Shown here: positions 24,778 to 49,055 of the stretch, in pieces | How positions within the stretch are numbered: the stretch's first letter is position 1 | Layout: each line of letters opens with the position of its first letter | Source of the DNA: Bacteroidia bacterium | GTDB taxonomy: Bacteria > Bacteroidota > Bacteroidia > SpSt-205 | Length of the DNA stretch: 64,000 bases | NCBI GenBank assembly: GCA_026003235.1 | Contig: BPGW01000008.1 | Location: forward strand, 62,001-126,000 | Direction: 5' to 3' | The notes under the pieces: model-generated | What the model saw: only the letters and a program-made list of their open reading frames with translations | What the model was told of the DNA's origin: nothing | Databases searched by the model: none | Program-made: the position numbers and the translations under genes

Positions 24778-25965
24778 ATGCATTATCTTTTAGCTCTCAT
24801 TATTATTTCCATTGCGTTAATATTTTATTCTTATGTTGTCTATCCCTTGATTATTTCCCTTGCTTCTTGGTTCCTTAGGCGCAAAGAGGGTGAATCATAT
24901 TCTAATATCTCAGAATTTCCTACTGTCAGTATCTTGATAGCCGCATACAATGAAGAAGCTGTAATCGGGAGGAAGTTGGATTCTATATTGAGTTTGGACT
25001 ACCCTCGGGAAAAGCTGGAGGTCTGGATTGGGTCGGATGCTTCTACGGACCGGACGGAGGAGATTGTTCAGCGATATGCCCAGGAATATCCTTTTATCCG
25101 GTTGGTTCGGTTTGAGGGGCGTACAGGGAAAGCTCAGATTATCAACGCTCTAAAGAAACAAGCTCGTGGAGAAATTCTCGTTTCCACCGATGCAAATGTG
25201 ATTTTTACACCCCAGGTGATTAGCGAACTGGTCGCATACTTCTCTGATCCGGCTGTGGGCATGGTTTCCGCAAATATCCGGCGAGGTGTAGGCAAACTGC
25301 AAAGGATGCAAGTAGTAGAAAAAGCTTACATTCAGCGAGAAAACGCCATCAAACAAAAACAATGGCTTCTCAGTGGCCTCATCATGGGCGTAGAAGGTGG
25401 TTGTTACGCTATCCGGCGTTCCCTCTTAGTGGAAGTCCCTGTGGGGTTTTTTATGGATGATTTCTTCATTACGATGGCTGTTATTGTTAGTGGATATAAA
25501 GTCGCCTTCGCTAGTAGGGCAATATGCTTTGAGGATATACCCGAAAAACAAGAAGAAGAATTTGAAAGAAAGGTCAGAATTTCTATAGGAAACTATCAAA
25601 ATATGCTTTACTATAGAAGTTTTCTGCTCAATCCTATGAGAAAACCTTTCTTTCACTTCTTTTCTCATAAGTTTATTCGCTGGATAACGCCTTTTCTCTT
25701 ACTTACTTCTACATTTGCTTCTTGGCCACTGGCTCTTTACGAAGGAGGAATTTACATCTACTTTGCAGCTGGGATGACAGGCCTTATGCTTCTTCCCCTC
25801 ATAAGGCGTGTAGCTATGCGCGTCCCAGGTTTCAATTTTATCACACACTTTGTATATATGAATTATGCGCTTTTGTATGGTTTTTTTCGTTATTTGCAGC
25901 GGCCTACAAGTAGCGTGTGGCAGCCTGTCGAGCGTAATGTACCTATAGAAAAGTCTGTTATGTAG
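24778..25965 (+). CDS. Glycosyltransferase family 2, membrane-associated
   Basis: 395 aa; TVSILIAAYNEEAVIGRKLDSIL, WIGSDASTDRTEEI, C-terminal TM segments; AT-rich relative to the window. Confidence 0.88.
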   Translation: MHYLLALIIISIALIFYSYVVYPLIISLASWFLRRKEGESYSNISEFPTVSILIAAYNEEAVIGRKLDSILSLDYPREKLEVWIGSDASTDRTEEIVQRYAQEYPFIRLVRFEGRTGKAQIINALKKQARGEILVSTDANVIFTPQVISELVAYFSDPAVGMVSANIRRGVGKLQRMQVVEKAYIQRENAIKQKQWLLSGLIMGVEGGCYAIRRSLLVEVPVGFFMDDFFITMAVIVSGYKVAFASRAICFEDIPEKQEEEFERKVRISIGNYQNMLYYRSFLLNPMRKPFFHFFSHKFIRWITPFLLLTSTFASWPLALYEGGIYIYFAAGMTGLMLLPLIRRVAMRVPGFNFITHFVYMNYALLYGFFRYLQRPTSSVWQPVERNVPIEKSVM

Positions 25966-36244: not shown

Positions 36245-37486
36245 ATGCGCTGGATAGGGTTGGTGGGCTGGGTGCTGGTGTGGGGGCAGGACACCGTCTG
36301 GTACACGGTGGAGCAGGTGGAGCGGCTTTTTCTGGAGCGAAACCTTCTTTTGATTGCGCAGAAGCTGCGTATAGACGCCGAAAAAGCGCTGGTATGGCAG
36401 GCTCGTCTCTGGCCTAACCCCCAACTGACCTTAGACCAGATAGACATTTTTACCCGTGCGGAGGGGCCTTTGCCTCCCTTTTTAGAGACGCCGCGCATCA
36501 ACCAGATTGCTGGGAACCTTTCGCAAACCTTGCTTACCGCAGGCAAGCGACTCAAAGGGGTGGCCCTGGCCGAAGCTTCGCTTCGCCTGCAGGAGGCGGC
36601 TTTGGCAGAGCTGCTCAGGCAACTGCGCTATGAGCTGCGACTCGGGGTCTATGGACTGGCTCGGGATCAATTCCTGATAAGCCTTTTCGTGGAGCAGGCC
36701 CACCTTTTGGAATCTTTGGCTAAGCGCTACCGTAGCCTCAGCCAGTCTGCGTTGGTGCCTTTGCCTGAATACCTGCGCGTAGAGAACCTGGCTCTGCAAG
36801 TGCAGGCGGATTTGCGTTCTGTGCGCCAGCGGTGGGAAGAAGGCCAGCATACCCTACGCCGCCTCCTGCATCTTGAAGCAGGCAGCCCGGTAGTCTGGAT
36901 AGATACGACGGGTCTGGCGGCCGCGCTGGCCCAGGAACCTCCCCCGTTGGATACGCTTTTGAGCTGGGTTTCCTCAAGGCCAGATGTACGAATGGCCCAA
37001 GCTCGGCGAGAATACGCCGTGTGCTCGTGGGAGCTGGAGAAAGCCATGGCCGTGCCCAATGTGGACGCTCTCGTTTCGTATGACCGACTGGGGGGGTATC
37101 AGTTTCCGCAGTGGGGAGTAGGCTTTAGTATGGCGCTGCCGGTCTTCAACCGGAACCAGGGGCGTATCCTTGCCGCAAGGAAGGCCGCCGAAGCTGCCCA
37201 AGCCGAATGGGAAGCGGCGTACCTCACGGCGCAGTCCGAAGTACTCTGGGCTTGGCGCAATTACCAGGTGGTGCGCAGCCAGTGGGAAAAAACCGATTTG
37301 GGGCTCTTGGAACGCTATCGCCAAGCAGAAGCTGCTTACCGGGAAAACCTCCTGGCCGGTCGCGTGAGCTTCCTGGCGTATGTGGATTTCTTCCAGAGTT
37401 ATCGGGACCTGGTGAGTAAGATAGCCGACCTGGCGTACGCCTATCAGGCGGCCTGGAATCAGATGGCTTATGCGACGGGTCGGTAA
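36245..37486 (+). CDS. TolC family outer membrane efflux protein
   Basis: 413 aa; WYTVEQVERLFLERNLLLIAQKLRIDAEKALVWQARLWPNPQL and coiled-coil repeats. Confidence 0.87.
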   Translation: MRWIGLVGWVLVWGQDTVWYTVEQVERLFLERNLLLIAQKLRIDAEKALVWQARLWPNPQLTLDQIDIFTRAEGPLPPFLETPRINQIAGNLSQTLLTAGKRLKGVALAEASLRLQEAALAELLRQLRYELRLGVYGLARDQFLISLFVEQAHLLESLAKRYRSLSQSALVPLPEYLRVENLALQVQADLRSVRQRWEEGQHTLRRLLHLEAGSPVVWIDTTGLAAALAQEPPPLDTLLSWVSSRPDVRMAQARREYAVCSWELEKAMAVPNVDALVSYDRLGGYQFPQWGVGFSMALPVFNRNQGRILAARKAAEAAQAEWEAAYLTAQSEVLWAWRNYQVVRSQWEKTDLGLLERYRQAEAAYRENLLAGRVSFLAYVDFFQSYRDLVSKIADLAYAYQAAWNQMAYATGR

Positions 37487-37624
37487 GCTGACTTAGGGGA
37501 GACCTGCCAGCGAGAAGGACAAGACCGCCAAGCAAGCGAAGCGAGAAAACCTGACCGGACTGTCCTGTGGAAATCCCTTTTCTTTTCCGCAGGCGCGTGC
37601 GGGTCCTACCTTACATTTGTGGAT

Positions 37625-38187: not shown

Positions 38188-39078
38188 ATGGGGTGGAGAC
38201 TGCTCACGCTCATAGCCGTTCTCTGGGGGCAGGATACGGTGAAAAAGCCCTGGCGTGTGGAGGCGCTTTTAGGTCTGCAGGCAGCGCAGACGGCCCTCTC
38301 AAACTGGCAGGCAGGGGGCCAGAACCAGCTTGGGGCGGGCCTACAGGGGCACCTCAAGGGGCTTTATGCGCGGCGACGCTACACTTTTTCAGTAGACCTT
38401 TCGGGTCAGTACGGCGTTTTGCGTGTGGTGCCCCAGCGCACCTACCGCAAAACGCAGGATTTTGCCCTGCTGGTGATGCAGGCAGAGCGTAGCTTCCAGG
38501 AAGAAGGGAGGGTAGCCCTGTCCCTTCTCGCAGATGCCCGAACCCAGTGGGCACCGAGTTATGCGTATGTAGGCGACTCTGTGGTGAAGCCGGCTACGTC
38601 GGCGTTTCTGGCGCCATTGTACGGGCAATTTGCGGTGGGTCTGCGTTACCGGCCGGTGAAGGGCTGGTCCCTGGTCTTCTCGCCGCTTTCGGGGCGGGTT
38701 ACCTGGGTGCGCCTTCAGTACCTGGCGGATGCGGGGGCTTTTGGCTTGCCACCGGCTGAGCGGGATAGTGCAGGAGAGGTCGTGCGCCCTGCCCGCCAAG
38801 CCCTGTGGGAAGCAGGGGGGCGTTTTACCTCGCGGCTTGCGCTTACGCCTGTAAAAGGGCTCCAGGTAAGCCATTTTCTGGATGCTTTTGGGAGCTACAC
38901 GCAACGGCCATGGGGGCCTGTCGTGGTATCTCAGCTCCAAGCGGCCTATGCACTGCGAAAGTGGCTGGCGATCACCCTCACCCAACAGGCCCTTTACGAT
39001 CCTCGCCTGCCTCGCGCTCAGCGCCTCCAGCTGCTCACCAGCTGGAGCTTAGCCTTGACGTATACGATGAGTCCGTAG
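38188..39078 (+). CDS. DUF3078-like outer-membrane-associated protein
   Basis: Signal peptide MGWRLLTLIAVLWGQ; ALSNWQAGGQNQLGAGLQG and beta-rich remainder; TACCTTTG 5 nt before ATG. Confidence 0.7.
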   Translation: MGWRLLTLIAVLWGQDTVKKPWRVEALLGLQAAQTALSNWQAGGQNQLGAGLQGHLKGLYARRRYTFSVDLSGQYGVLRVVPQRTYRKTQDFALLVMQAERSFQEEGRVALSLLADARTQWAPSYAYVGDSVVKPATSAFLAPLYGQFAVGLRYRPVKGWSLVFSPLSGRVTWVRLQYLADAGAFGLPPAERDSAGEVVRPARQALWEAGGRFTSRLALTPVKGLQVSHFLDAFGSYTQRPWGPVVVSQLQAAYALRKWLAITLTQQALYDPRLPRAQRLQLLTSWSLALTYTMSP

Positions 39079-39150
39079 CTCCGAATCCATCTTTGCAACA
39101 TTTGGCGCAGGGGAGCGTATATTTAGGAGAAGAAAGGCTTGTGGCTTCGT

Positions 39151-40728
39151 ATGCGGCAGCAAAAACCGTTTTCCGCAGCGCTGTTGGCCGAGCTGCGCCA
39201 GCAGACGCCTTTTCTGGCGGTCCAGGCCTGGGACCTTGAGTACGCCGTCCGCAAAATCAATGGCGTAGTAGCCAAAGCCGGCTACAAGCCTAAGATCCTG
39301 ACGGGTAGCTTAGACGAGGAGGATCGTGAAACGCTCCTCACACTGGCCCGCACTACAAGGCTATTCTGTATGTTTGTGGGGCTCTCAGAAAGCTATGCGG
39401 GATGGGAGTCTTCGTCAAGGAGGGGCTCTTTGTTTTACAATACGATTAGCGGGCTGCGAGAACTTTTATTTCAAGTGTGGCGGCAGAGGCTTCCCCTCAC
39501 GGTAGCTATAGTAGATCGGGTGGTGGAGCTTCCGGCTTCGCTGCAGATAGAGCGGCCGGTGATGTTGCGGCTGGATAGGCCTGAGGTAGGCGATGTGGAG
39601 CTGGCTTTGCAGCGGTACCCAGACGCCTTGCAGGTGTGGAAAAGGTTCTCTCGCAGCGACCAACAGCTCCTTACCGAAGCGCTGTTTTCGCATGCCAGCT
39701 ATCGGGCTGGGGCGCATATGCTGGCTCGTTGGCTCACGCAGTTTGATACGATAGAGGAGGTGCTTTTGGCGGTGCAGAAGAACCGATCGGGGGCTTTTTT
39801 GATGAATCGGACGCTCCAGCAGGTAGAGATCGATCCGGAGGAGGTAACCATAGGAGGCATGCCAGGTCTGCGGCAGTGGTTGTGGGAAGTGGAGGGGGCC
39901 TTTACAGAGGAGGGGCGAGCGTTTGGGTTGCAGCCTCCTCGCGGGGTTCTTTTGGTGGGGGTGCCGGGCACAGGCAAGAGCCTGGCTGCGAAGCTCGCGG
40001 CTCACGCCTGGAACCTTCCTCTGGTGCGCCTGGACTTGCCCGCCGTCTTCGGCCCTTACATAGGGGAGAGTGAGGCCTACATGCGAGAAACCTTGGCCAG
40101 CTTAGAAGCTTTCGGTCCCGCCGTCGTGCTGCTGGACGAACTGGATAAACTCTTTGTCAAAGAGACCTCCTCCACGGGCACGCAAGAGCGGGTTCGGGCC
40201 TATCTCCTGACCTGGATGCAAGAACGAAGGGAGGGCAGCGTGATTTTTGCCACCGCCAACGACCTGACGATGGTCCCCCCTGAACTGGTGCGGCGAGGCC
40301 GGATAGATGAGGTGTTTTTTGTGGACCTGCCCACCTTTTCCGAGCGCAAAGAGATATGGGAGGTCATGCTAAACCGGCATGTGTTTCGTCACCAGGCTCA
40401 GCGGCGGCCCATCTATGCGCGGTGGAAGGTGACGCCTCCCTCTCCGGAGGACTTTGACTTGGATAAGTTAGCGGCCCACACAGAGGGCTTCACCGGGGCC
40501 GAGATTGAGGAGGCTGTTCGGAAGGCGCTTTACCAGTCGTTTGCTTTGCGTCAGGCGATGGCCATGCGGCATCTGACAGGGGCCCTGGAGGAAATTATCC
40601 CGCAGGCCTATACCCAGGTAGAGCAGATACATAAGCTCCGGCGCTTGGTGCGGGAAGGCCGTGTCCGTTCGGTGTCCCCTTCGGACGAAGAGCCTGTCCG
40701 AATCCCTTACTACGGGTCTGAGGTATGA
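39151..40728 (+). CDS. Ycf46-like AAA+ ATPase (paralog 1, intact Walker motifs)
   Basis: [62 protein letters not shown]. Confidence 0.85.
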   Translation: MRQQKPFSAALLAELRQQTPFLAVQAWDLEYAVRKINGVVAKAGYKPKILTGSLDEEDRETLLTLARTTRLFCMFVGLSESYAGWESSSRRGSLFYNTISGLRELLFQVWRQRLPLTVAIVDRVVELPASLQIERPVMLRLDRPEVGDVELALQRYPDALQVWKRFSRSDQQLLTEALFSHASYRAGAHMLARWLTQFDTIEEVLLAVQKNRSGAFLMNRTLQQVEIDPEEVTIGGMPGLRQWLWEVEGAFTEEGRAFGLQPPRGVLLVGVPGTGKSLAAKLAAHAWNLPLVRLDLPAVFGPYIGESEAYMRETLASLEAFGPAVVLLDELDKLFVKETSSTGTQERVRAYLLTWMQERREGSVIFATANDLTMVPPELVRRGRIDEVFFVDLPTFSERKEIWEVMLNRHVFRHQAQRRPIYARWKVTPPSPEDFDLDKLAAHTEGFTGAEIEEAVRKALYQSFALRQAMAMRHLTGALEEIIPQAYTQVEQIHKLRRLVREGRVRSVSPSDEEPVRIPYYGSEV

Positions 40729-42293
40729 CCCCCTCTAACCGGTGCCCTCTTACTCGGCAGCTCCTCCAAGAGCTGTGCCAAGGTCAGCGCTTTTTTGTCG
40801 TACGCACCTGGGACCAAGGCTACGCTATCACCTGGCTTCAGCAAGTGGCTAAGGCCTTGGGATATGGCTTCAAGATAATGGGCTCATACAACCTCTTTCC
40901 TCCCCGCCTTATCCTACGCTTGGGCTTCAAAGGCCGTTTCTTTGTAGTGCCCTACGAGAAGTGGGCTTCAAGGAAGCGTTCCCTCCTCTCTCCCTCCTGG
41001 GCCTACAGCCAGAAAATAAGCGAGAAGGTAGGCCGTCTCTATACGAGAAAAAGGCTCACAGCGCTGTTTTTCATAGACATAGGCGGGGACTTGGCTGGGC
41101 CTTTGCTGCTTGAGCGGCCTACGCTTCTATGGCTGCGTGAGCCGGAGATGGAGAGTATTGCCTTGGCGCTTCGTTCTGATCCAGAGAGCTTGACAAAATG
41201 GGAGGCTCTTTCGCCGAAGCTGCAGGCGGAGGTGCGTCGGGTTTTGGGGCAAGTGCCTTTTTCGGTGGGCATGCAGCAGCTGCGTGCGGCGCTGGCGTGC
41301 GCGCAGGGGGAGACGAATGTTGCTATGCAGTTGTGGGAGCGGTGCTCAGCTCGCTTATCCTTCCCGAAGGCCCTTATCCCGGTGTCGCTGCCCGAAAAAG
41401 TAGAACTGGCTGGCCTGCCTTACCTGCGGGCCTGGATACACGCCAGAAAGGCAGCTTTCACCGAAGAGGGCCGCTTGTTTGGGCTGCCGAAGTCTCGGGG
41501 GCTCTGCTTAGTGGGCCCCCCCGGCACCGGTAAAAGCTTAGCCGTACACTACTTAGCCCGGTCATGGAACCTCCCCCTCTTCCGGCTGGATTTTAGCGCT
41601 CTCCTTAATAATCCCTACTTAGGCGAGAGAGAAGCCAACTACCGCCAACTCTTTGAGTTCCTGAGCAAGATCCCCGCAGGCCTACTCTGGATAGACCATT
41701 TGGAGTCCTTATTTCCGACTGGTCCTAAGCGCCGAAAAACGGAAGACCACTTTTTGTTTTACCTATTTCAGTGGTTAGATTCACAACATGATGGGGTTTT
41801 TCTGGTGGCCACAGCTAACCGCATAGACAACTTGCGTCCTGAGCTTTTGCGGCGTGGCCGTTTTGATGAGGTATTTTTTGTGGATCTGCCGGCGGCTTCG
41901 GAGCGTCGGGAGCTCTGGGAGCTGATTTGGCGGCGGTATGTAGAGGGGCGTGGGCAGGGTGGGGCAGCCCAAGCAGCCAACCTGGAGATGCCCTGGGATC
42001 GGTGGGTAGAGGCTTCCAGAGGATTTAGCGGGGCCGAGATAGAACAGGCTTTTCAGGAGGCTCTCCGGCGGGCGTATGTGCTAAGGCGTCCTGTGCAGGC
42101 GAGGGACGTGGAGGTGGTGCTGGAGCAGATGGTTCCCCAGGCGCTCAGCCAGCAAGAGGCGATCCAGGCGCTGCGACGGCTTGTTCTGGAGGGGCGGCTT
42201 CGCCCGGCCGGTCCCTCCGAGGAAGAGAGCGCACCAGCCTGTCCCTCTTCCTCAGCGAAACGCCCCCCTCCCCCGCAAGGGCTGGGGGTGTGA
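40725..42293 (+). CDS. Ycf46-like AAA+ ATPase (paralog 2, Walker B D-H)
   Basis: [64 protein letters not shown]; 4 nt ATGA overlap with paralog 1. Confidence 0.85.
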
Positions 42294-46110: not shown

Positions 46111-48006
46111 TTACTTTACAATGAGCCAGATCCTTCGGCCTTGGGGTAGGAAGCCGTGTTTACCGCTCAGGAGGCCGATTTGTACCTGGTAGCGGCCAGG
46201 GGGCGGCACGAAAAGGAAGACCCCCTGCGTGTATGTGCGGGGAAGGTCCCGTTCAAAAGGGCGGAACTGCGGCTTGCTCATCAAAGGCTTACCTTGTTCG
46301 TCGTAGAGGAGGTAGCCGAGGCCTGCCCACGCATGAGGCTGAGGGAGGCAAGGGATCCTTTCGGCGTAGGTTTGGTGCACACGAACCTCAGCTACGGTGT
46401 AGTCAGGTCCAGAAATCACCTTAGTATAAGCGTAAACCACTGTATCTAAAATTTCTATCTCTATTTTGCCGGATTCTATAGCGGTGTAGACAGTACTATC
46501 TTGGGGAGTGGTGATGACCTTATAGCGAAGTGTGTCGGGGAAGCGATAGTAGTCAGGGTTGAAGTAGGCAAACGTACCGTAAAGAGGGGTCCAGTATTGA
46601 GCTCCTAATAGCTGGCGGTGTTGAGTAGCCTGGGCGAGGCTATCTACGTAGGAGACAGGACTGTGGAAGCAGAGGGCCACTGCGGAGTCTGGGCCTTTCA
46701 GCCCAGTTAGGCACATACTGCCGGCGAGGAAGTAGTCATATCGTAGCAAATAGGGATGTGTCTCAGGGGAGAGCGCACGATAGTCTAAGAGGGCTTTTCG
46801 TTCGCCGGTCTGTCGGCAGCTTTCTGCGATCCGTTCTATGTATCGCATGCTGTAGGAGAGGGGGTGTTGAGCTTTCCAAGTTTCCCACAAGGCCTCTACG
46901 GCAATACCAAGGAGGAGAAGGTGGCTCAGTATCCTTTCCCAGGGCTTTTGCAGGAGGGTAGTAGCTTGTACGATAAACGCAAATAATAAAAATGGAAGAA
47001 TGAGTGCATACATATCACCATGAAAGTCGTTAGGAAATTGGGTAGGAAGATAGCGATTGAGATATATGGCTTGAGCGCCTACAGTTAAGAGGGTTGTACC
47101 CAGCAGAGGCAAGGCTTTCTTGGGTGTCTTAAGAAGCAGGTAGGTTCCCACCAAGAGAGTGCTTGTGAGAAGGAAAGAATAGACCCGGGGAAGATGTAGA
47201 AGCAAGTATTTCGAGAACCATGTACAATTGAACAAATCTATTATTTTTACCGTTCTAATGTAGCTTGTTCTCCATCTTTCATATTCTGTTAGGAAAATAG
47301 TGTGCTTTAGGGCTATTAGAAGTAGTATGCTGCCTGCAAAGATTAAGGCGTGGAGATCTACACGTCGTTTTTTGATATCAGTACCCTCTAAAAGAGCCAA
47401 AATAGATGCCCATCCGAGGAAAGCAGAGCTAATAGGGTGCGTATAATAGAGAGACACAAAAGCCAAAAAAATGGCTATGCCAAGAAAGATTCTTTTTCGG
47501 TGGAGTTTCTCTTGCATACGACTCAAGAGGTAGGACATGTAGCTGCCTGCTGCAATGGAGAGAGTCGTGATGTTACTGGTCGTGCTATAAAAGAGCTCAT
47601 GAGCAAAAAAATAAGAAGCAATAGGAAGCCATAGGAAGTGGGCCGGTAATCGGGTCGGATAAAAAGCTAAGTAAAATAGTGCGCCTATCAGGAGCAAGGA
47701 TGTAGAAAAAGCTATAACTCCCTGCTCAAGCGTACCACCCCTACTCAAAAAAAAGACAGAGATTACATTTGGAATATAGAAGAAATGTCTTATTTCTATC
47801 AAATTTTCAGCCAGAGAAGCAGACTTAATCCTGCTAATAATATAATCTAATGTGCTTCCGTATTTGTTTATAGAAAAGTATAAAAATTCGTGAACCCAGT
47901 CACTCCATAAATATAGCTTATAAGAAGAAGCTGCCAGGTAAACCATGTATCCTATAGCTGCCAGAGGCAACAGTCGTGGCAAGTGCCAGCGCCAGCTTTG
48001 CTGCAT
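46111..48006 (-). CDS. Polytopic membrane protein (glycosyltransferase/O-antigen-type, uncertain)
   Basis: Many hydrophobic segments; AT-rich; start set to MQQSWRW, 4 nt after TATCTTTG (ORF track start 48093). Confidence 0.6.
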   Translation of the reverse strand: MQQSWRWHLPRLLPLAAIGYMVYLAASSYKLYLWSDWVHEFLYFSINKYGSTLDYIISRIKSASLAENLIEIRHFFYIPNVISVFFLSRGGTLEQGVIAFSTSLLLIGALFYLAFYPTRLPAHFLWLPIASYFFAHELFYSTTSNITTLSIAAGSYMSYLLSRMQEKLHRKRIFLGIAIFLAFVSLYYTHPISSAFLGWASILALLEGTDIKKRRVDLHALIFAGSILLLIALKHTIFLTEYERWRTSYIRTVKIIDLFNCTWFSKYLLLHLPRVYSFLLTSTLLVGTYLLLKTPKKALPLLGTTLLTVGAQAIYLNRYLPTQFPNDFHGDMYALILPFLLFAFIVQATTLLQKPWERILSHLLLLGIAVEALWETWKAQHPLSYSMRYIERIAESCRQTGERKALLDYRALSPETHPYLLRYDYFLAGSMCLTGLKGPDSAVALCFHSPVSYVDSLAQATQHRQLLGAQYWTPLYGTFAYFNPDYYRFPDTLRYKVITTPQDSTVYTAIESGKIEIEILDTVVYAYTKVISGPDYTVAEVRVHQTYAERIPCLPQPHAWAGLGYLLYDEQGKPLMSKPQFRPFERDLPRTYTQGVFLFVPPPGRYQVQIGLLSGKHGFLPQGRRIWLIVK

Positions 48007-48204
48007 GGGGCAAAGATACCGGTTCGGTACGCATCCCTTCTCCTTCCCTATGCCCAAGCCGGGGATTATTAGCCATTGTATGCTTGCTTTCATTTAGCAC
48101 GACTGTGGAAGGGGTAGGTCAAGCGAAGGTGAGTATGAAGTAGGCATGGGTAGGCCAGGAGTGGGCCTGGTGTGGGCGCAGACCCCGCTGGAGCCGTCTA
48201 GCCG

Positions 48205-48413: not shown

Positions 48414-49055
48414 TTACTCTTCCAGGAGGCTTTTGAGCTCGTCCAGGTCCAGTTCAAAGCCGGGGAGGTGGGGTTCTGCACTTAGGCGGCCGGTAAAGCC
48501 CTGGCGCTGTTGGACGGGCTGGTGGGGCTCGTAAATGTAAATGGTATGGCTTTCCAGGTCAAAGAGCCAGCCGAGGAGGGCGCCGTTTTCCCGGTACTCT
48601 TGCATTTTTTCGTGGAGGGTGTGTAGGGGCTGGTAGGGGGAGCGTAGCTCCACCACGAAGTCAGGGCAGAGGGGGGCGAAGGTGTTTTTTTCAGCAGGGG
48701 AGAGGGCGTTCCAGCGTTCTTTGCGGATCCAAGCGGCGTCGGGGCTGCGAATAGCTCCATTGGGCAGGCGAAAACCTGTAGAAGAGTCAAAAACTACCCC
48801 AAGCCTGTATTGTTTATTCCAGAACGCAAGCTGGGCGACAATCTCTCCGTTGACTTTGCCTGCATTGGAATGGGTAGGAGTCATAAAGAGGAGGTTTCCC
48901 GCTCGGTCTTTTTCCAGTGCGAACTCGCTTTGGGCAGCCAGCCAGGCAAAAAAGCGCTCTTCGTCGGCGATGAGGTTTAGGGCTTTGGCTTCGGCCAGGT
49001 TCAGGGTCAAGACGCTGTACATACGCAGAAGAGGGCTTTTAGACAAAGATAGCAA
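48414..49055 (-). CDS. Uma2 family (DUF820) nuclease-like protein
   Basis: 213 aa; GEIVAQLAFWNKQ, FDSSTGFRLPNGAIRSPDAAWIRKERWNAL, PDFVVELRSPYQPLHTLHEKMQEYRENGALLGWLFD. Confidence 0.88.
   Translation of the reverse strand: MLSLSKSPLLRMYSVLTLNLAEAKALNLIADEERFFAWLAAQSEFALEKDRAGNLLFMTPTHSNAGKVNGEIVAQLAFWNKQYRLGVVFDSSTGFRLPNGAIRSPDAAWIRKERWNALSPAEKNTFAPLCPDFVVELRSPYQPLHTLHEKMQEYRENGALLGWLFDLESHTIYIYEPHQPVQQRQGFTGRLSAEPHLPGFELDLDELKSLLEE

Follow-up and report, generated by a model that had tools for sequence, protein, structure and literature searches.

Overlapping Genes for Two Ycf46-Type AAA ATPases, One with an Asp-His Walker B Motif, Suggest a Mixed Active/Pseudo-ATPase Ring in a Bacteroidia Bacterium

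The division of labor between AAA subunits that fire and those that do not has been studied largely through engineered Walker B mutants. The arginine fingers of AAA ATPases act on the ATP of the neighboring subunit. Ycf46-type ATPases belong to the SpoVK/Ycf46/Vps4 group and occur in bacteria, cyanobacteria, archaea, and phages (phrog_8638); they are proteins of about 520 residues with an N-domain that lacks a P-loop and a C-terminal AAA domain that carries family-specific motifs. One cyanobacterial study is reported to link Ycf46 to the regulation of CO2 utilization (cited by PMC12172450), and the AAA ATPase that serves as the SgiA antitoxin has been described as related to SpoVK/Ycf46/Vps4 (PMC10954446). 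Among heteromeric AAA rings, Pex1/Pex6 is a double-ring heterohexamer whose first ring is catalytically inactive (PMC10518020). Here we analyze two adjacent Ycf46-like genes, AAA1 and AAA2, in a 64-kb window (the whole stretch of DNA analyzed, from a Bacteroidia bacterium). Positions are those of the window unless another locus is named, and all features of the two genes lie on the + strand.

AAA1 (39151–40728) begins with ATG and encodes a protein of 525 residues with intact motifs; an alternative TTG start at 39139, 12 bases upstream, would give 529 residues. AAA2 (40725–42293) encodes 522 residues, and its start overlaps the AAA1 stop in the sequence ATGA (40725–40728). A preliminary description of this DNA had reported two overlapping paralogs that share N-terminal, AAA+, and C-terminal regions. 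We recovered the same coordinates, lengths, and overlap, and a single alignment spans 502 codons of both genes, N- and C-terminal regions included, at 36.7% amino acid identity. The Pfam AAA model (PF00004, gathering score 21.2) matches AAA1 at 93.5 bits (E = 2e-26) and AAA2 at 89.3 bits (E = 4e-25). No promoters or terminators were detected around the pair beyond the level expected by chance.

We treated a protein as Ycf46-type if it had about 500–550 residues, a C-terminal AAA domain, and the family motifs (GxPGxGKSL, DE..K, ATAN, and R.GR.DE.FF.DLP), and for this pair the label refers to that architecture and to cyanobacterial relatives of the same size. AAA1 has the full motif set and AAA2 has all of it except DE..K; because DH..S replaces that motif, we regard AAA2 as a derived paralog and not as a standard member of the family. 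Ycf46-type relatives are 35–47% identical to the pair across the AAA half, but those among the matches listed have D-E..K and are not found as adjacent pairs, whereas AAA2 has D-H. No curated NCBIfam model reached its cut-off with either protein, and the best PHROG match, phrog_8638, is without assigned function. The AAA domain of IetA, from the IetAS anti-phage system, resembles that of AAA2 (PADLOC IetA, E = 7e-20), but the pair scores 66 bits against an NCBIfam IetA cut-off of 510 and no subtilase gene was found among the neighboring proteins tested, and we rejected assignment to this defense system. The likeness of the pair to the SgiA antitoxin is one of AAA domain similarity (PMC10954446).

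The two AAA domains differ at Walker B. In AAA1, Walker A (GVPGTGKS, 39958–39981), the Tyr-Ile-Gly of pore loop 1 (40057–40065), Walker B Asp329-Glu330 (40135–40140), sensor 1 (ATAN, 40249–40260), and the arginine-finger region (RRGRIDE, 40291–40311) are all present. AAA2 has an intact Walker A (GPPGTGKS, 41514–41537), sensor 1 (ATAN, 41808–41819), and arginine-finger region (RRGRFDE, 41850–41870), and it keeps pore loop 1 as Tyr-Leu-Gly (41616–41624). Its Walker B motif reads WIDHLES where AAA1 has LLDELDK, with Asp324-His325 encoded by GAC CAT (41694–41699; CAT, 41697–41699), and Arg336-Lys338 (41730–41738) stands in place of the conserved D.G that follows Walker B in the family. The D-H and the three retained motifs are as the preliminary description had them; it had overlooked four further changes in AAA2, namely the R.K in place of D.G, Lys to Ser three residues past the Walker B Glu, Lys to His after the P-loop, and GESE to GERE in the motif that follows pore loop 1.

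We then compared both proteins with 36 near-invariant columns of the AAA half, defined as those conserved at ≥97% among the aligned relatives (169-relative alignment). AAA1 keeps 35/36 of these residues and AAA2 keeps 28/36. The losses in AAA2 fall in the half that forms its own ATP site (8/24 columns) and not in the part from E373 on (0/12), a contrast that is merely suggestive (Fisher p = 0.03) because the boundary was picked after the data had been seen. The lost residues include the Walker B Glu, the Lys residues after the P-loop and after Walker B, the D.G pair, and a Pro after sensor 1, and the retained residues include E373, R376, R379, and R394. AAA2 thus has the motif profile of a pseudo-ATPase, in which the catalytic Glu is gone and the nucleotide-binding and trans-acting residues are retained. 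As arginine fingers act in trans, this pattern would suit a subunit that binds ATP, fires poorly, and completes the active site of its neighbor.

On balance, we favor a model in which a lineage-specific duplication gave rise to a hetero-oligomeric, probably hexameric, ring. AAA1 and AAA2 would assemble into one mixed ring driven by AAA1, while AAA2 would bind ATP, hydrolyze it poorly or never, and lend its arginine fingers to neighboring AAA1 sites. As AAA2 retains an aromatic pore loop, its role may be structural and regulatory, that of a subunit clamped on ATP within a protein-remodeling ring. The preliminary description had likewise predicted a hetero-oligomer with a nonhydrolyzing subunit, and paralogy, the selective loss of Glu with retention of trans-acting residues, and the gene overlap make this a plausible prediction from sequence. 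The analysis shows the gene structure, the motifs lost and retained, the kinship of the two proteins, their predicted two-tier fold, and the rarity of the pair; from these we infer the mixed ring, its stoichiometry, and its remodeling activity, and co-encoding is not proof of co-assembly.

To place the D-H motif in the family, we gathered relatives from genomes, viral contigs, and Bacteroidota genomes, using patterns and whole-protein searches in which the Walker B Glu was optional; the genome part was a pattern scan of 85,000 species, in which the relatives number at least the matches listed. Among those matches, the D, E, and K of DE..K are invariant in the 169 aligned relatives, AAA1 conforms, and AAA2 is alone in carrying D-H..S. 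About 40 further paralogs, taken from the genomes with the best matches, have D-E, apart from two distant cyanobacterial copies with D-D. The latter lie in a Leptolyngbyaceae cyanobacterium genome (G777; L279 1402–2979, − strand, and L280 808–2394, + strand), where Walker B reads VLYWDDFDK (Glu to Asp), and by their sequences they are a natural variant subfamily of Ycf46-like ATPases. They weigh against the mixed ring in that they show Walker B varying without a neighboring partner. They also bear on the possibility that AAA2 is still an active ATPase whose polarizing base is His325 or some other residue, so that both subunits fire: an acidic residue other than Glu is seen in the wider family, and Walker A, the Walker B Asp, sensor 1, and the arginine fingers of AAA2 are intact. 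We nevertheless think this distinctly unlikely, given that the Glu is invariant in the 169 relatives among the matches listed and that the neighboring invariant Lys and loop residues have gone along with it.

We looked for a D-E version of AAA2 and found none among the matches listed, and the D-H motif is in this respect uncontradicted. The preliminary description had also raised the concern that the CAT codon might be a sequencing error. This was not borne out: a change from GAA or GAG to CAT takes two substitutions and other motif residues are changed too, which excludes a single base or read error.

In a tree of 74 diverse rows, AAA1 and AAA2 are sisters (support 100/98), and the support was 99 in a quicker tree from which the motif regions had been removed. 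The end branch of AAA2 is longer than that of AAA1 (1.8 versus 0.7 changes per column), also when the motif regions are removed (1.1 versus 0.5). Because the two proteins are sisters and share a private N-domain, their sequences point to a single duplication of one divergent Ycf46-type gene, after which AAA2 changed fast, with an excess of change around the active site. The pair has a GC content of 0.585 and typical codon usage, both matching the window (GC 0.59), and we rejected recent horizontal transfer, of which there is no compositional sign. A viral or plasmid origin was also rejected: such sequences are only about 30–37% identical in the AAA half, and no close relatives of AAA2 were found in the viral scan.

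The fast end branch, together with the lack of the pair in any congener, could also mean that AAA2 is a duplicate in decay that is turning into a pseudogene. We consider this very unlikely, as the reading frame is intact over 522 codons, second codon positions are constrained (AAA1/AAA2 differences of 0.40, versus 0.75 at saturation), and simulated neutral drift to even 60% identity never left fewer than three stops (200/200 runs); these properties argue against simple decay. The 28/36 near-invariant residues that AAA2 retains and the confidence of its predicted structure (83, see below) also argue against it.

We found the pair in one genome only. Neither gene is present in 10 congener genomes (several >95% complete), and a sample of about 730 Bacteroidota did not contain the pair; this is the group in which the preliminary description had proposed to look for it. 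Other Ycf46-type genes occur in 4 further genomes among 395 Bacteroidia and in 24 further genomes among 396 Bacteroidota, and in these samples none form an adjacent pair besides AAA1 and AAA2. No adjacent degenerate pairs were found at genome and viral loci among the matches listed in the wider scan. Candidatus Ferrigenium straubiae (G775) has three Ycf46-like D-E copies within 18 kb (L263 958–2604, 13206–15581, and 16958–18589), all intact, two of which sit 1.4 kb apart.

A DUF3078 gene (38188–39078; Pfam match, E = 3.6e-10) lies upstream of AAA1, as the preliminary description had noted. The genes that flank the pair (TetR, DUF3078, ABC, metallo-hydrolase, and thioesterase) are found in the same order in the complete congener G006, where two small genes on the opposite strand (L221 6384–6746 and 7064–7372, − strand), one of them DUF2752-like as judged from sequence, fill the slot between DUF3078 and ABC; similar small genes adjoin the ABC gene in the congener G009 (L226 6790–8479). 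Because these genomes hold small genes there instead, the pair is an accessory element in a position whose content varies, and it may have been gained here or lost in the other congeners. A tie to DUF3078 and the envelope is unsupported, because DUF3078 is present in five congeners, all without the pair, and TetR-DUF3078 is syntenic in G006 without it; for the same reason this neighbor offers no hint of the substrate.

The source is a draft genome (82% complete, 11 contigs), and this, with the absence of the pair from 10/10 congeners, raises the question of an assembly artifact, contamination, or a base error. The two changes needed at the CAT codon, the further altered motif residues, the synteny with G006 on both sides, and the agreement of GC and codon usage with the window largely refute this explanation, to which we assign a negligible probability.

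Other differences and compositional outliers were seen in the window. The interval between the efflux gene and TetR (37486–37619) is empty where G006 has an RND pump gene between an outer-membrane efflux gene and TetR (L221 2303–4852), and the best RND copies remaining in the source genome are only 23–34% identical. A family 2 glycosyltransferase gene (24778–25965, + strand; GC 0.42) and a gene for a large, unassigned, probably membrane protein (46111–48093, − strand; GC 0.47) deviate from the window GC of 0.59, which suggests a foreign origin. A gene for a putative Uma2-family nuclease (48414–49055, − strand) adjoins a TRAP transporter cluster.

The N-domains (AAA1, 39151–39828; AAA2, 40725–41384) lack a P-loop and are private to the pair by sequence: over some 220 residues they are 28% identical to each other (BLAST, E = 2e-9), and neither has a BLAST match at E < 0.1 to the other collected family members. 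AlphaFold monomer models (mean pLDDT 90 for AAA1 and 83 for AAA2) match two-tier AAA ATPases (Rix7, NVL, AFG2, and p97) over their whole length with TM-scores of about 0.5–0.7, values at which the domain arrangement is just approximate. The most fitting interpretation of the N-domain in these models is a first AAA tier that has degenerated, within a two-tier fold like that of p97 or Rix7. SPATA5-SPATA5L1 (55LCC) is, with Rix7/NVL/AFG2/p97, the best whole-chain fold match, but these are eukaryotic or archaeal families, unlike the pair. Their first tier retains a P-loop and that of the pair does not.

The divergence of the common N-domain to 28% identity, the long AAA2 branch, and the basic loop after Walker B might instead reflect a new role outside an AAA1 ring, in which AAA2, as a monomer or homo-oligomer, would serve as an ATP-binding switch, adaptor, or scaffold that recruits substrate to an AAA1 homo-hexamer or tunes it. 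We regard this as unlikely, as AAA2 retains all of the trans-acting residues, which are relevant solely beside a neighbor that fires, and its aromatic pore loop.

If the mixed ring exists, the overlapping genes provide a compact, natural bacterial pair with which to test directly why a fixed nonhydrolyzing subunit is useful, and a way into a widespread family of ATPases to which few functions have been assigned. As the pair occupies an accessory slot in one species, it would also show how ring asymmetry can arise through a single duplication.

Two described systems resemble the proposed mixed ring. Red algal rubisco activase, a 1:1 heterohexamer of nuclear and plastid CbbX, likewise has two paralogous AAA subunits per ring (PMC5385338), but it belongs to another AAA family and is single-tier, unlike the pair. 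Pex1/Pex6, the closest mechanistically characterized parallel, has related two-tier subunits with an inactive first tier and an unequal second tier (PMC10518020, PMC4490564), which would be the logic of the pair if our model is right; it is, however, a eukaryotic peroxisomal complex that is not close in sequence, and both of its second-tier domains have canonical motifs, unlike AAA2. It is conceivable, and we put it forward tentatively, that AAA1 and AAA2 form a bacterial two-tier, obligate active/pseudo-ATPase heterohexamer that arose in one lineage, with a private N-domain that recognizes the substrate and a logic like that of Pex1/Pex6.
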